A DNA stretch of 64,000 nt from positions 62,001 through 126,000 of the forward strand of contig JAFKKG010000010.1 of NCBI GenBank assembly GCA_017305715.1. The letters run 5' to 3'. The position numbers and the translations under genes are program-made. This document shows, one piece after another, positions 55,080-60,524 of this stretch. The notes below the pieces were generated by a model. The model was not told where the DNA came from and made no database searches. It saw only the letters and a program-made list of their open reading frames with translations. This DNA is from Hyphomicrobiales bacterium (GTDB taxonomy: Bacteria; Pseudomonadota; Alphaproteobacteria; Rhizobiales; Xanthobacteraceae). Position 1 is the first letter of the stretch, and every line of letters begins with the position of its first letter.

Positions 55080-55499
55080 TCAGCCCCGCGTGAACCGCTC
55101 GATGATCTCCTGCGGCATCGGCGCCGATTTCAGCCGCGCCGGGTCGTCCGGATGCTTGCCGACCAGCACGCGGGTCTCGAACGCCTCGATCGCCAGCGCC
55201 TCGCCCTTGAACACGTTGTGGACCACCTCGAAGCTGGAGCGCTTGAAACTCTCGATCCGGCTTTCGATCCTGATCCAGTCGCCATGGGTTGACGGAATAT
55301 GGAATTTTGCCCGCGTATCGACCATGGGAATGCCGACTAGGCCGTATTTGTGGATGATGTCCTGTTTCGAGAAACCGGCCGCTTCGAACATGATCGAGGT
55401 CGAATCGTCGAACATCGCGAAGTAGCGCGGGTAATAGACGATGTTGGCGGGGTCGCAATCGCCCCACTGGATCTGCACGTCGCGCCGATTCACGAACAT
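55080..55499 (-). CDS. Acyl-CoA thioesterase (4-hydroxybenzoyl-CoA thioesterase family)
   Basis: This 139-residue single-domain hotdog protein has the motif WGDCDPANIVYYPRYFAMFD near the N-terminus. D16 aligns with the catalytic Asp of the Pseudomonas 4-hydroxybenzoyl-CoA thioesterase. It hydrolyses an aryl or acyl-CoA to the free acid. It is 8 bp downstream of the SDR gene in the hydroxycinnamate operon. A reasonable role is release of 4-hydroxybenzoate or vanillate from the aroyl-CoA formed after side-chain removal; this is inference. Confidence 0.8.
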   Translation of the reverse strand: MFVNRRDVQIQWGDCDPANIVYYPRYFAMFDDSTSIMFEAAGFSKQDIIHKYGLVGIPMVDTRAKFHIPSTHGDWIRIESRIESFKRSSFEVVHNVFKGEALAIEAFETRVLVGKHPDDPARLKSAPMPQEIIERFTRG

Positions 55500-55507
55500 C
55501 GGATACC

Positions 55508-56269
55508 CTAGCGCGGCGCCATGCGGAGCGCGGCATCGAGCCGCACCACTTCGCCGTTCAGATACGGGTTGTCGATCATGTGCAGCGCCAACGAGGCAAA
55601 CTCGTCGGCTTGGCCGAGCCTTCGCGGGAACGGGATCGACGCGGCGAGCGAATCCTGCGCTTCCTGCGGCAAATTGGCCAGCAGCGGCGTCAGGAACAGG
55701 CCCGGCGCAATGGTCAGCACGCGGATGCCGAACTGCGCCAGTTCGCGCGCGATCGGCAGCGTCATCGCGACAATGCCGCCCTTGGAGGCCGAATAGGCCG
55801 ATTGCCCGATCTGGCCGTCATAGGCCGCGACCGATGCGGTCGAGATCACGACGCCGCGCTCGCCGGTCGGCAGCGGCTCCAGCTTCGACATGTCAGCGGT
55901 TGCGAGCCGCAGCATGTTGAAGGAGCCGATCAGGTTGACCTTGATCACCCGGTCGAAATCGGTGAGCGCCATCGGGCCTTCCTTGCCGATCACGCGCTTG
56001 GCAACGCCGATGCCGGCGCAATTGACCAGCACCCGGGCCGGGCCGTGCGCCTTGGCGGCAGCGGCGACGGCGGCTTCAGCCGAAGCGCCGTCCGAGACAT
56101 CGCAGACCACCGCAACGCCACCGATCTCGGCGGCGACGGTTTCGGCGAGCTTGGCATTGAGATCGCATACCGCAACCTTGGCGCCCTGCGCCGCCAGCCG
56201 CCGCGCGGTGGCGGCGCCCAATCCGGATGCACCACCGGTGACGATGGCGGCCTGGTCCTTCAACTGCAT
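55508..56269 (-). CDS. Short-chain 3-hydroxyacyl-CoA dehydrogenase (HSD10-like)
   Basis: This 253-residue SDR has the cofactor motif VTGGASGLGAATARRL (about residues 10-25), NCAG and catalytic YSASKGGI (about 158-165). The tail IAPGLFLTPLLANLP...FPRRLG is typical of type II 3-hydroxyacyl-CoA dehydrogenases. It lies between the feruloyl-CoA synthetase-like and thioesterase genes. A matching enzyme in the Agrobacterium fabrum ferulate cluster oxidises the 3-hydroxy-3-arylpropionyl-CoA, so the same step is proposed here. Confidence 0.82.
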   Translation of the reverse strand: MQLKDQAAIVTGGASGLGAATARRLAAQGAKVAVCDLNAKLAETVAAEIGGVAVVCDVSDGASAEAAVAAAAKAHGPARVLVNCAGIGVAKRVIGKEGPMALTDFDRVIKVNLIGSFNMLRLATADMSKLEPLPTGERGVVISTASVAAYDGQIGQSAYSASKGGIVAMTLPIARELAQFGIRVLTIAPGLFLTPLLANLPQEAQDSLAASIPFPRRLGQADEFASLALHMIDNPYLNGEVVRLDAALRMAPR

Positions 56270-56298
56270 GGTACTCTCCCTGATAGCCTTCTTCGAAT

Positions 56299-58194
56299 TC
56301 AGTTCAGCGTGATGACGTGCGCCGGCGGAGCCGGTGCATAAATCTGCTCGATGTCAGCGCTGCGATGCTCGATGACCGCGCGCTGGTTGATGGAGCCCTT
56401 GTCGGTGACTTCGCCGCGATCGATCGACAATGGCGTATCGAACAGCACCGCGCGGGTGATCCGGGTTGACGACCCCGTGGCGCTTGCCAGCAGTTTCTGG
56501 AAGCGTTCGCGGAACGCGGCGCGGATCAGCGGATCGGAAGCCGCCGCCGCGAGATCGTTCGCGGCGAGTTTCGGGTTGATCAGGCGGCAGCCGTCGAGAT
56601 CGAGAACCACCAGTGCCGATAATTCGTCGCGGTTGATACCTGCGATCACGACGTCGCGCACCAGCGGCGCGCAGGCGGCAACGAAGCGCGCGCGCAACGG
56701 TCCGACGCTGACCCAGGTGCCGCTGGCGAGCTTGAAATCCTCGGCGATGCGGCCGTCGAAATCGAAGCCGGCGTTGAAATCATCGGGATCGGCGGGCTTG
56801 AGCGCATCGCCGAACTTGTAAAAGCCTTCCTCGTCGAACGCGGCAGCCGTGAGTTCGGGCTGGCGCCAATAGCCCGGCGTGACGTTCGGGCCCTTGGCGC
56901 GCACTTCCAGCTTGCCGTTGTTCGGCAGCAGCTTTGCATCGTTCCCTGATACGGGAAGGCCGACATGGCCGGAGCGGCTGGTGTCGGGGCGGACCGACAT
57001 GAAGAACGGCGATGTTTCCGTGGCACCGAGGCCGGTCAGCATGGGCACCCGAAAGCCGGTCTCCTGCACCGCGAGTTCGTCGAGGCTGTTCCAGACGAAC
57101 GGCGAGAGCGCCGCGCCCGAGAAGAACATCGCATGCAGTCTGCCGAAGAATTTCGCCCTGAGCGCCTTGTCTTCACGCAAATAAGGCAGCAGCGATTCAT
57201 AGCCCTTGGGGACGTTGAAATACACCGTCGGCGAAATCTCGCGGAGATTGCGCACGGTCTCCTCGATGCCGCCGGGCATCGGCTTGCCCTCGTCGAGATA
57301 CATCGAGCCGCCATTGAACAGCGTCAGTCCGATATTGTGGTTGCCGCCAAACGTGTGATTCCACGGCAACCAGTCGACGATGACCGGCGGCTCATCCATC
57401 AGGAACGCCAGCGTTTCGCGCAGCATCATCTGGTTGGCGCAGATCATTCGCTGGGTGTTGATGACGGCCTTGGGGTTACCGGTCGAGCCCGACGTGAGCA
57501 GGAATTTTGCGATCGTGTCCGGGCCGATGGCCTCGTTGGCGGCATCGAGGCGCGGATGCTCCGCCGTCGCCATCAGATCCGACAGCAGCGTTAAGTCCCG
57601 GCCGGGCACCGTGCCTCGCGTGGCCGCGATCTCGGTCCCCGGCGCAACATTGGCCAAAAGCGCATCGGCGAACTTGCTGGCGTCGTCGGCGAAGACGAGA
57701 CCGGGCGTCAGCAGCTTCATCAGGAAGTTAAGTTTGCCGTAATCGCGCGATACCAGCGAATAGGCCGGCGAGACCGGGCAAAAGGGAATGCCTGCATAGA
57801 GCGCGCCGAACGCCAGCAGCGCGTGGTCGACCGAATTGCCTGACAGGATCACGATCGGCTTTTCGGCCGAGAGCCCGCGCGCCAGCAGCGCCGAAGCGAT
57901 GCGCCGCGTCGAGGCCAGCAATTGCGCGTAGGTGACCTGGCGCCAGCCGCCGGTTGCATCGCGCTCGGCCATGAAGACGCGACCGGGCGCTTCGCTTGCC
58001 CAATGATGCAGGCGGTCGGTGAGCCGCACCGGATAGTCGCGCAATTTGGCCTTCGGCCGCAGATAGATGGTGCCGTCATCGCGGCGCTCGACCGTGACGT
58101 CGGGATTGCCGAACGAGATCGCGCGGAGCGGATGGGCGTTGCCGGTGCGCGCGGCGCTTTCGATCGGGGAAGACATGTTGGGCTTGGCGCTCAT
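56299..58194 (-). CDS. fcs: Feruloyl/p-coumaroyl-CoA synthetase
   Basis: This 631-residue AMP-forming CoA ligase has the phosphate-binding loop FLLTSGSTGNPKAVINT (about residues 224-240), WLPWNHTFGGNHNIG, GLGATETSPFFMS and the late FDFDGRIAEDFKLASGTWV. The last of these replaces the usual RxKD(x)I hinge motif and is typical of the feruloyl-CoA synthase branch. It activates ferulate, p-coumarate or similar acids. It lies 1 bp after the crotonase stop and shares an operon with the SDR and thioesterase. The R. palustris counterpart is called couB. Confidence 0.85.
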   Translation of the reverse strand: MSAKPNMSSPIESAARTGNAHPLRAISFGNPDVTVERRDDGTIYLRPKAKLRDYPVRLTDRLHHWASEAPGRVFMAERDATGGWRQVTYAQLLASTRRIASALLARGLSAEKPIVILSGNSVDHALLAFGALYAGIPFCPVSPAYSLVSRDYGKLNFLMKLLTPGLVFADDASKFADALLANVAPGTEIAATRGTVPGRDLTLLSDLMATAEHPRLDAANEAIGPDTIAKFLLTSGSTGNPKAVINTQRMICANQMMLRETLAFLMDEPPVIVDWLPWNHTFGGNHNIGLTLFNGGSMYLDEGKPMPGGIEETVRNLREISPTVYFNVPKGYESLLPYLREDKALRAKFFGRLHAMFFSGAALSPFVWNSLDELAVQETGFRVPMLTGLGATETSPFFMSVRPDTSRSGHVGLPVSGNDAKLLPNNGKLEVRAKGPNVTPGYWRQPELTAAAFDEEGFYKFGDALKPADPDDFNAGFDFDGRIAEDFKLASGTWVSVGPLRARFVAACAPLVRDVVIAGINRDELSALVVLDLDGCRLINPKLAANDLAAAASDPLIRAAFRERFQKLLASATGSSTRITRAVLFDTPLSIDRGEVTDKGSINQRAVIEHRSADIEQIYAPAPPAHVITLN

Positions 58195-58195
58195 G

Positions 58196-58996
58196 TCAGG
58201 CCGGCTTCACCTTGGCGGTCTTGCGATCCAGAAACGCGCGGATCCGGCGCTTTGCCTCCTTATCGCTTTGCGCCACGGTGGCCATCAGCGACTCCATCAA
58301 GAGGCCGGCTTGCGGATTGGCTTCCGCAATCATCGGCAGCGCCTGCAGCACGGCAAAATTGGTCAGTGGCGCATTGGCCGCCACGCGTTCGGCCAGTTCC
58401 AGCGCCTTGGGCAGCGCGCCGCCGGCTTCGGTGAGGTATTGCGAGAAACCATAGGCGGCGCCTTCGGTGGCGGAATAGACCCGGCCGGTCAGCATCATGT
58501 CGGTCATCCGCGCTACCCCGATCAGCCGCGGCAGCCGCACCGAACCGCCGCCGCCGACGAAAATGCCGCGCTGGCCCTCGGGCAGCGCGAAATAGGCCGA
58601 GGGCTCGGCAACGCGGATATGCGCGGCACAGGCGAGTTCCAGCCCGCCGCCGATCACCGCACCCTTGAGGGCTGCGATCACGGGCACGCGGCTATATTGA
58701 ATGCGATCGAACACCCGGTGCCACATCTGCGAGTGGCGCAAGCCTTCGGTCGCATCATGATCGGTCAGTTCCGACAGATCGAGGCCGGAGGAAAAATGAT
58801 CGCCAATGCCGTGGATCACCACGGCGCCGATGTCTTCGGGCAGATCGGAGAAGCAATCCTGGATCGCGAGGATGATGCCGTCGTTCAGCGCATTGCGTTT
58901 GGCCGGGCGATTGAGGCCCACGGTCAGCACCGCGCCGATTTGCTCGATTTTGAGCAGGCCGGATGGATCAGCGGGGGCAGAAGCGGCGTTTCCCAT
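58196..58996 (-). CDS. Crotonase-family enoyl-CoA hydratase of the hydroxycinnamate operon
   Basis: This 266-residue crotonase is the first gene of the degradation operon. The oxyanion/active-site segment is VIGGGLELACAAHIRVA with E120, and ALPEGQRGIFVGGGGSVRLP has E140. The 20-residue spacing equals that of Glu144/Glu164 in true enoyl-CoA hydratases. The feruloyl-CoA hydratase-lyase of Pseudomonas has Ser123 and Glu143 at these places. Keeping both Glu residues favours hydration of feruloyl-CoA or p-coumaroyl-CoA for beta-oxidation, not retro-aldol cleavage to an aldehyde. The locus position corresponds to couA of R. palustris. Confidence 0.82.
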   Translation of the reverse strand: MGNAASAPADPSGLLKIEQIGAVLTVGLNRPAKRNALNDGIILAIQDCFSDLPEDIGAVVIHGIGDHFSSGLDLSELTDHDATEGLRHSQMWHRVFDRIQYSRVPVIAALKGAVIGGGLELACAAHIRVAEPSAYFALPEGQRGIFVGGGGSVRLPRLIGVARMTDMMLTGRVYSATEGAAYGFSQYLTEAGGALPKALELAERVAANAPLTNFAVLQALPMIAEANPQAGLLMESLMATVAQSDKEAKRRIRAFLDRKTAKVKPA

Positions 58997-59018
58997 GGGC
59001 TTATTGTTTCCCGTCCAG

Positions 59019-59041
59019 AATAGTTATGTTTTATAATTATT
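59019..59041. promoter_or_regulatory. AT-rich inverted repeat upstream of the crotonase operon
   Basis: AATAGTTAT (59019-59027) and ATAATTATT (59033-59041) are inverted arms matching at 8 of 9 positions, with a 5-bp centre. It lies 23 bp before the crotonase start in an AT-rich island. Position and size suit a MarR-family operator, with the neighbouring regulator as candidate. Confidence 0.5.
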
Positions 59042-59199
59042 GATGGCGGAGTCAATATGACCCCGATAGGAATATCTTCTGGAAAGGCCGCCGGGAGATT
59101 TCCGGTCATTTCCCGTTGGCGCGCGATCGTGATGCTTGTCACGGTCACGGCCGCGGATCTCAGCCAAATCGGGTCACCGGAAATCCGATGGAGCCCGCT

Positions 59200-59382
59200 A
59201 TGACCAAACATGCCGCGCATGAACTGGCAAACCAGCAGACCGAGCTGACCGCGAACGAGATGGAATATGTCTCGGGAGGGTCGGTTTCCGTCCACACTGA
59301 ACAAGTCGTGGTTCATTACCAGCACCCGGTCACGTCGACGGGAAAGACCATGTTTCGCCCGCCCAGCAAGAAGCGGGCGTGA
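59200..59382 (+). CDS. Small peptide with double-glycine (bacteriocin-type) leader
   Basis: This 60-residue gene starts at the ATG at 59200, with GGAG 6 nt upstream at 59190-59193; an in-frame ATG at 59188 has no such site. The N-terminal 27 residues are a charged leader ending LTANEMEYVSGG, the classic pattern removed by C39-peptidase ABC exporters. The predicted 33-residue core begins SVSVHTEQVVVHYQHP and ends RPPSKKRA. It is basic (five Lys/Arg against one acidic residue) with three His and no Cys. No immunity gene, C39 exporter or modification enzyme is in the window. Function is unknown; microcin, signalling peptide or precursor peptide are all possible. Confidence 0.65.
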   Translation: MTKHAAHELANQQTELTANEMEYVSGGSVSVHTEQVVVHYQHPVTSTGKTMFRPPSKKRA

Positions 59383-59537
59383 TCCTGCCCGGCTGACCGA
59401 ACACCTGGCTGTTCACGGCGACCGGGGGGTTGGCGTGCCGGCTGCCTTATCGTCGAATGCGCCAATCTGTCCCGCCTGCCGCCCATGGCAGAGACCGGGC
59501 GATGCGCTACCCTCTCCGAAAATCCAGGGAGAGAATC

Positions 59538-60524
59538 ATGTCAAAAATCGATCGCCGTCACTTCATCGCGGCCGGGTCGGCCGCTGCCGCGGCGCCGTTC
59601 CTGTTGCGCGGGGCCTCGGCGCAAGGCGCCTGGCCGTCACGGCCCATCCGCATGGTGTGCAGCTATCCGGCGGGCGGCCAGACCGACCTCCTGGCGCGGG
59701 CTTTCGGCGATTACATCGGGCGGCAGGTGGGCAAGACCGTCGTCATCGAGAACAAGGCCGGCGCCTCCGGGTCGATCGGTGCGGCGGAAGTCGCCCGCGC
59801 GGAGCCGGATGGCCACACCATGCTGTGCTCGATCTCGACCACCTTCGTGATGAACCGGGTGATGATGAAGAACCCGGGCTACGACATGGACAAGGATCTG
59901 ACGCTCGTCAGCGTCATCCCCGGCGCCGGGCTGCTGCTGGTGGCGAGTCCGAAATCCGGCATCAAGTCGCTGGACGATTTCGTCGCCTTTGCGCGCAAGA
60001 GCGGCAAGATGAATTTCGGCACCTACAGCGCCGGCTCGTCCCCGCACATCACCATCAATGAACTCAACAAGCAGTACGGCCTCAACATCGAACCGATCCA
60101 CTACCGCGGCGAAGCGCCGATGTGGACGGGCGTGGCGGACGGCACGCTCGATGTCGCGATGGGCAGCTACACGGCGGCGCAATCCATCCTGCAAAGCAAC
60201 AACGGCATCGTGTTCGCGGTGCATTCCAAGAAGGTCGACGCGATCCCGCACGTCAAAACCCTGCCTGAACTGGGCGCGACGTCGAAGTTCTTCACCGTGA
60301 GCGGCTTCTCGGGCTGGGCGGTACCGAAGGCGACGCCGCAGCCGATCGTCGATCGATTGTCCGAACTGTGCGTCGCCGCCAACAACGACCCGAAAGTGAA
60401 GGAGGTTCTCGCCACCTTCGTGCTGGAACCGGCGATCGGCTTCAAGGAAAGCAACGCGCTGTATCAGAAGGAATTGCCGGTGTGGATCGAGGCCGGACAG
60501 GCGCTGGGACTGCCGCCGGCGTGA
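59538..60524 (+). CDS. Tripartite tricarboxylate transporter receptor (Bug family)
   Basis: This 328-residue periplasmic binding protein of the TctC/Bug family has a Tat-like signal (DRRHFIAAGSAAAAAPFLL) cut near ASA. The family motif is PIRMVCSYPAGGQTDLLAR, and the substrate-loop region is YRGEAPMWTGVADGTLDVA. The start at 59538 follows AGGGAGAG. Bug proteins bind carboxylates or aromatic acids for TctAB permeases, but no tctA or tctB gene is nearby, so this is an orphan receptor. It is convergent with the DUF3237 gene. Confidence 0.87.
   Translation: MSKIDRRHFIAAGSAAAAAPFLLRGASAQGAWPSRPIRMVCSYPAGGQTDLLARAFGDYIGRQVGKTVVIENKAGASGSIGAAEVARAEPDGHTMLCSISTTFVMNRVMMKNPGYDMDKDLTLVSVIPGAGLLLVASPKSGIKSLDDFVAFARKSGKMNFGTYSAGSSPHITINELNKQYGLNIEPIHYRGEAPMWTGVADGTLDVAMGSYTAAQSILQSNNGIVFAVHSKKVDAIPHVKTLPELGATSKFFTVSGFSGWAVPKATPQPIVDRLSELCVAANNDPKVKEVLATFVLEPAIGFKESNALYQKELPVWIEAGQALGLPPA

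Follow-up and report, generated by a model that had tools for sequence, protein, structure and literature searches.

The double-glycine precursor gene and its surroundings

The window analysed here, that is, the whole 64-kb stretch of DNA, carries an open reading frame (ORF) on the plus strand at 59200-59382 whose translation is exactly 60 amino acids plus a stop codon, as the original prediction had stated, and the good ribosome site claimed for it is present as a GGAG at 59190..59193. The first 27 residues (59200..59280) form a double-glycine (GG) leader ending ...LTANEMEYVSGG, with V, M, E and L at positions -4, -7, -8 and -12, counted from the second Gly. According to PMC6363468, these four positions are the ones bound by C39 peptidases. 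The leader is canonical, being hydrophobic at -4, -7 and -12, with Glu at -8 and a GG end, so that the claim of a GG leader holds with all the C39-read positions occupied. The 33-residue core (59281..59379, followed by the stop codon at 59380-59382) is homologous to small Sec-signal proteins over their mature part. It had been described as basic, Cys-free and His-containing, and the translation matches this: it lacks Cys, has three His and one Tyr, and finishes with a basic PPSKKRA end.

No curated family in Pfam or NCBIfam reached its cut-off with the peptide, the best scores being well below, and scanning the protein against NCBIfam at E <= 10 brought up neither nitrile-hydratase nor Nif11 leader families. 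A leader model built without the window gene gave it 11.8 bits (E 1.5, assuming 150,000 ORFs) and a right-justified leader model 10.9 bits (E 3.1), the best of 2000 shuffles reaching 6.6 bits. The leader motif by itself is weak proof that the gene rises above chance. The ORF is nevertheless taken to be beyond chance because of two independent matches, one of the promoter-leader region (E 4e-18) and one of the core (E 1e-9), both in the frame of the window ORF.

On the minus strand at 58196..58996 lies an enoyl-CoA hydratase/isomerase gene (PF00378, 5e-38) at the end of a hydroxycinnamate-type locus, and on the plus strand at 59538..60524 a gene for a TctC-type solute-binding protein (PF03401, 3e-39). 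Besides the enoyl-CoA hydratase, the minus-strand genes upstream encode an AMP-binding enzyme, a short-chain dehydrogenase and a thioesterase. No exporter, immunity or modification gene was found among the five neighbours in 55080-60524, all of which are metabolic or solute-binding. The region 58700-59900 was searched against 265 genomes of the genus, Bradyrhizobium, 262 of which matched, two candidates being scored per genome. Among the matches listed, the flank alignments of the relatives end near 59056 on the enoyl-CoA hydratase side or begin near 59453 on the TctC side, and none spans the approximately 400 bp with the window gene; the whole unit is contained in the stretch 59057..59452, which none of them crosses. 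Both flank pieces are listed for eight single-contig genomes (G019, G031, G064, G102, G138, G240, G261 and G264), where more than 2 Mb separates them; some of the second pieces may be paralogues. The adjacency to hydroxycinnamate genes that had been emphasized is real as far as the enoyl-CoA hydratase flank is concerned, but the link appears incidental, because no listed match crosses the approximately 400 bp and the flanks are distant in other genomes.

A dispersed set of GG-peptide genes

A DNA search with the pattern E-[hydrophobic]-x-x-V-x-G-G identified 12 places in the genome, compared with 4 for the reversed control, and nine of the 12 are small ORFs with the motif at leader position. 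With a leader profile, 18 places were obtained at E <= 10, and 15 were accepted as GG genes (nine of these 15 are also rows of the profile). Together with those that the promoter motif described below brought up, 23 scattered GG-leader genes were counted in the genome, plus one ending Ala-Gly. The original prediction missed that the gene is one of at least 23 GG-leader genes with a common CRP-like promoter, and the label "orphan" puts the emphasis wrongly, as the window gene belongs to a dispersed GG-peptide set with a common promoter type. The gene C41c, which ends AAG, stands outside the 23 GG genes and inside the sets of 25 promoters and 42 genes used below. One member of the set, L215 (G000:C41:164500-166500), has a leader that ends VAAG in place of GG. 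A PTGTGPTFPT core is common to the GG peptides of L175 and L211/L212 despite their differing promoter-leader cassettes.

A CRP-like promoter with fixed geometry

An exact CRP-like palindrome, GTGATGCTTGTCAC, is located at 59129..59142 and begins at -71 from the start codon. The palindrome GTGA-N6-TCAC was found within 250 nt upstream of all 15 leader-found GG genes (14 exact, one with one mismatch), and in 11 of these it starts at -88 to -95; the palindrome of the window gene is outside this usual range, which counts against the interpretation preferred below, and those of C31 and G089 start at -72. It also precedes the G089 gene (exact) and a G197 gene (one mismatch). Within the 64-kb window there are two exact copies of the motif, one of them that of the window gene, and 106,429 bases of the genome contain seven.

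We aligned 25 promoters, 24 from this genome and one from G089, and found an A at motif position 38 in all 25 and T or C at position 42 in all of them. Eight of the 24 own promoters (C1_491, C1c, C25b, C27, C36b, C38, C40exp and C41c) were found by the motif itself and are therefore excluded as evidence of palindrome presence; position 38 lies outside the motif search pattern, and the C18a row was selected, one of two one-mismatch sites being kept. We read A38 as the -11A of a -10 element, which places the palindrome centre at -41.5. A centre near -41.5 corresponds to class II CRP geometry, and the promoter set of the window gene has the palindrome at this fixed spacing to the -10 element. For the window gene itself, the predicted -10 element is CAAATC (59165..59170, plus strand, with the A at 59166), which has C at both T positions, a feature that counts against the interpretation preferred below. 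The fixed spacing would put the transcription start at 59177 on the plus strand, with a 23-nt 5' leader.

A genome search for the palindrome followed by a gap, GGAG and ATG gave 34 places, compared with none in the reversed control. GG-leader peptides are encoded at 14 of the 34, and at least nine others have Sec-like N-termini as judged by eye; places inside long frames are probably due to chance. A38 is present in 22 of the 29 motif-first places parsed by script. We also inspected the exporter regions of a further 14 genomes; 12 of these regions were 20 kb long, and the other two measured 14 kb and 7 kb. Here, 23 exact sites precede GG ORFs, and such GG-linked sites occur in 11 of the 14 regions, all from other Bradyrhizobium genomes; the 23 are not independent, as they include orthologues (L202-L205; L211 and L212) and near-identical copies (L209). 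A38 accompanies 18 of the 23 GG-linked sites, the other five having TA or CA one base off, and 5 of the 53 site orientations without a GG gene in the same regions. Exact sites are absent from the exporter regions of G089 and G017, and the G001 site is without a GG ORF. Three of the 14 regions thus hold no GG-linked exact site, among them that of G089, the nearest relative of the cassette of the window gene, and this too counts against the preferred interpretation.

At L152, L156, L159-L161, L167, L168, L173 and L174, the same signature stands upstream of genes whose products have N-termini that look Sec-like by eye. The Sec-like products behind the signature include DDDDYR-rich and Gly/Met-rich proteins and one resembling a secreted caspase-type protein. 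This suggests that the signature marks a wider envelope or secretion regulon.

An NHLP-type exporter and a candidate activator

At a threshold of E <= 0.001, Peptidase_C39 has a single match in the genome (E 3e-37), and it forms the N-terminus of a 742-aa ABC protein (ABC1) on contig C40, where the exporter set comprises this protein, a 968-aa ABC protein (ABC2) and a 422-aa HlyD protein. ABC1, ABC2 and HlyD score 1060, 861 and 293 bits against NCBIfam cut-offs of 853, 709 and 156, and all three pass the cut-offs of the NHLP export system models TIGR03796, TIGR03797 and TIGR03794. ABC1 exceeds its cut-off in 15 of 20 chosen genomes, own included. The objection that the genome might lack a C39 exporter fails, because the C39 match lies in an ABC1/ABC2/HlyD set; the exporter looked for elsewhere in the genome was found as a complete NHLP-type set on another contig. 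A processing partner acting in trans, as originally envisaged, agrees with the position of the only C39 match on another contig and with the metabolic and solute-binding neighbours of the window gene.

Directly behind the NHLP ABC2 gene lies a 54-aa GG-leader ORF with a Gly-rich core (L017:9516-9680, minus strand; G000:C40:279515-279679). Exact palindromes at L017:9758 and 9795, one of which is at -91, came up in the motif scan and led to this previously unnoticed gene; a similar GG gene with the same promoter site is present in G195, G196, G197 and G012. A gene for a patatin with a cyclic-nucleotide-binding domain (L017:7386-9239, minus strand) adjoins the exporter's GG gene. Another exact GTGA-N6-TCAC (L017:17074-17087) lies upstream of hlyD at a distance of about 0.9 kb, and the four exporter regions compared, L202-L205, contain a similar site. 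The site before hlyD may drive the exporter genes, but judged by eye its distance to a -10 deviates by one or two, and there is an ORF in between.

HTH_Crp_2 has 23 matches in the genome, 13 of them over the cut-off. Among the ten strongest, two (C41:261604 and C40:392644) carry CRP-like RES(V/I)N(R/K) recognition helices, two carry (I/L)ETVSR helices, which we take to be FixK-like, and the remaining ones differ. About 60 nt separate the end of the CRP-family gene at C40:392644 from an exact site with its small target gene (L177, G000:C40:392954; L182). Compared with solved structures, this C40 candidate matched best the Crp/Fnr regulator 3i54 (E 8e-39), with further matches to 7pza, presumably Clr (4e-32), and E. 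coli CAP (2e-23). As a guess, we put forward the C40 protein as the candidate activator of the GG set.

Mosaic origin of the window gene

The 5' part of the gene, at 59128..59279 on the plus strand, resembles the GG-peptide gene of genome G089 (73% identity, E 4e-18). The match covers the leader and 72 nt upstream (approximately 152 nt) and stops at the middle base of the second Gly codon; the core of the G089 peptide is unrelated to that of the window gene. At E <= 0.05, a DNA search with this promoter-leader cassette gave matches in 111 of the 265 genomes; most of the matches were 20 to 40 nt long, and G089 alone was used. The next-best match, in G183 (L090, G183:C1008:448-496), comprises 49 nt of the leader end (84%, E 7.5e-8), and the GG filter returned no GG ORF there.

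The 3' part has different relatives. A core profile matched 18 genomes at E <= 0.1, six of them strongly (E < 1e-10), own included, and the core homologues are small Sec-signal proteins in 5 of the 265 genus genomes, the signals being judged by eye. Seven weak matches of the core profile (L045-L051) were rejected as an unrelated 83-aa frame. Residues 29-59 of the precursor, within the core, are 63% identical to the G278 protein, and at the DNA level the segment 59323..59373 (plus strand) matches the Sec-type gene of G278 (B. tropiciagri SEMIA 6148) with 88% identity over 51 nt, with four synonymous and two non-synonymous differences. A model of the five Sec-type mature parts, from which the window gene was left out, scores the window core at E 1e-9. 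The window core is accordingly homologous to the mature domain of the Sec-type family, with a GG leader in place of the Sec-like N-terminal signal. No palindrome, even with one mismatch, was found within 250 nt of any of the five Sec-type genes. All five adjoin the same long ORF, which in G278 is split between two frames; one copy of it had no Pfam match at E <= 1e-10, and two of the Sec-type relatives gave no Pfam or NCBIfam family over cut-off.

The 43 nt just 3' of the GG codons have no DNA match to either parent, a further point against the preferred interpretation. The leader compared with G089 gave pS 0.46 and pN 0.23, and 17 core codons compared with G278 gave pS 0.33 and pN 0.05; codon changes lean synonymous in both halves, on the basis of 23 differences in the leader and six in the core. 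The complete fusion was found in one of the 265 genus genomes, which counts against the preferred interpretation; no full-length homologue at a convincing E value was found besides the window gene in these genomes, nor in the genome_contigs collection (single-protein search) or in plasmids. Conservation of the frame and GG site in relatives, on which the original prediction depended, is thus seen for the separate halves, each of which has relatives elsewhere, but not for the complete gene. At the level of sequence, the window gene is a mosaic member of the dispersed GG set, to which the single C39 match assigns one exporter.

Possible cassette fusion across the set

We compared promoter-leader DNA scores with core scores for 42 such genes (861 pairs). 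The promoter-leader scores have a median of 12 and a 90% point of 18, and shuffles reach 15. Several pairs have promoter-leader scores of 29 to 69 with cores under the shuffled 99% level of 40, namely (promoter-leader/core) window gene-G089 (69/19), G187a-G187b (48/24), C1c-C38 (45/18), G187a-G060a (40/36), C27-C41b (39/18), C17-C1c (38/12) and C17-C36 (34/18). The DNA match ends at most 2 nt from the GG codons in six of the 13 inspected pairs (window gene-G089, G187a-G060a, C27-C41b, C17-C36, C17-C25 and G249-G197t). It stops before the GG codons in C1c-C38 and C17-C1c, continues 19 to 32 nt past them in G187a-G187b and C17-G024b, and runs through in the three inspected pairs with matching cores.

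The match ends at GG support fusion at this point in the cassette set. The pattern falls short of proof, because conserved leaders and fast-changing cores alone would produce it; the case is stronger for the window gene because its core has its own DNA match. C38 and G060b have a Pro/Gly-rich core in common and not the cassette (82 vs 12), a core match that is weak because of its low complexity. Tentatively, and with slightly more doubt than confidence, we suggest that a Bradyrhizobium module of CRP promoter and GG leader has repeatedly been fused near GG to new cargo, even to mature parts of Sec proteins, and that more than 20 unlinked, evolving peptides share a single exporter and a single activator. 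If this is true, a cargo would move in one step from the Sec route to a common extracellular export route and regulon.

Proposed mechanism and alternative explanations

Starting from the ORF, its mosaic DNA, the palindrome with its fixed spacing in the set and the complete NHLP set with the only C39 match, all of which can be read directly from the DNA, we consider it fairly probable that a promoter-leader cassette captured a Sec-type cargo, so that this cargo would now use the NHLP exporter and be controlled by a CRP-type regulator. The window precursor would then consist of the 5' cassette of the dispersed GG set and a 3' cargo of the Sec family. A CRP-family activator, of presumed identity and ligand, would bind GTGA-N6-TCAC centred near -41.5; transcription would begin near 59177 and yield an mRNA encoding the 27-residue GG leader. 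The C39 domain of ABC1, the NHLP-type protein encoded on the other contig, would recognize this leader and cleave it behind GG; the basic core of 33 residues would then exit through the ABC/HlyD channel. The role of the core is most likely bacteriocin-like or signalling, outside the cell.

An accidental join of a GG-peptide piece and a Sec-type piece, with the frame open by chance, could instead have left non-functional junction debris. The presence in one genome of 265, the flanks more than 2 Mb apart in eight single-contig genomes, among the matches listed, and the 43 nt of junction without a match are consistent with such an origin. However, both halves keep their own reading frame, no damage is seen in the leader, the GG and ribosome sites, the palindrome or the -11A, and the core retains its C-terminal end, with codon changes that lean synonymous; we regard debris as rather unlikely. 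Much less credible still is a plain orphan class II-like bacteriocin precursor whose core resembles the Sec-type proteins by convergence of short basic tails: the canonical leader and the short, basic, Cys-free core would suit it, but the core also matches at the DNA level (88% over 51 nt), and the core model without the window gene returns E 1e-9.

We give even odds to the view that the GTGA-N6-TCAC box belongs to CRP-family promoters in general and has nothing special to do with GG peptides. Among the 34 motif-first places, the 14 with GG-leader peptides stand beside at least nine others that are Sec-like by eye, as such an element would predict; on the other hand, the box is present in 15/15 leader-found GG genes (14 exact), at fixed spacing, and recurs in other genomes. 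Its presence in all of the leader-found GG genes implies at least a shared regulon, though a non-exclusive one, and a general box is compatible with cassette capture, the preferred explanation.

GG precursors distant from their exporter are hard to find, and a promoter signature of fixed geometry locates them without a known leader; it ties the GG genes into one regulon and, by the one C39 match, to one exporter. The window gene would be a concrete case of export-route switching through cassette fusion. Because Bradyrhizobium lives beside plant roots and other microbes, exported peptides under CRP control in such numbers would add a directly testable layer to its interactions.

Comparison with known systems

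With double-glycine peptides (class II bacteriocin-type or ComC-type), the window gene shares L-12, E-8, L/M-7, V-4 and GG, a variable core and a C39 exporter in the genome. Unlike them, it has no nearby exporter or immunity gene and reaches no curated family cut-off, and its core is related to Sec-signal proteins. Dirix et al. in 2004, cited in PMC3140520, reportedly screened Gram-negative genomes for GG peptides. In the titles and abstract openings searched, we found no published description of a CRP-controlled GG-peptide regulon in Bradyrhizobium.

The three exporter proteins, all above the model cut-offs, resemble the NHLP export system, whereas the window leader is short and has no nitrile-hydratase or Nif11 leader match. 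The leaders documented for NHLP exporters are long ones of the NHLP or Nif11 kind, not short ones, and this counts against cassette capture. Haft et al. 2010 (PMC2887384) also mention NHLP precursors far from modification genes, and Bradyrhizobium has no occurrences in the main text of that paper.

The Sec-signal proteins (of B. tropiciagri, B. acaciae, B. zhengyangense, B. manausense and G187) have the mature part HP(V/I)TS...PPSKK in common with the window gene; they differ in having a Sec-like N-terminal signal and no palindrome, where the window gene has a GG leader. As in E. coli CRP class II promoters, GTGA-N6-TCAC is centred 30.5 nt from -11A, at about -41.5. The main Crp cluster has the helix RE(T/M)VGR, compared with RES(V/I)N(R/K) in the two candidates of this genome. 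The Clr sites of Sinorhizobium meliloti, as given in PMC10127613, are 14-bp palindromes with a GT start, an AC end and the core GTNNCNNNNGNNAC; the sites described here are likewise 14-bp palindromes with a GT start and an AC end, and they differ from the Clr sites in their fixed GTGA/TCAC and in the T that 12 of the 25 have at position 5.
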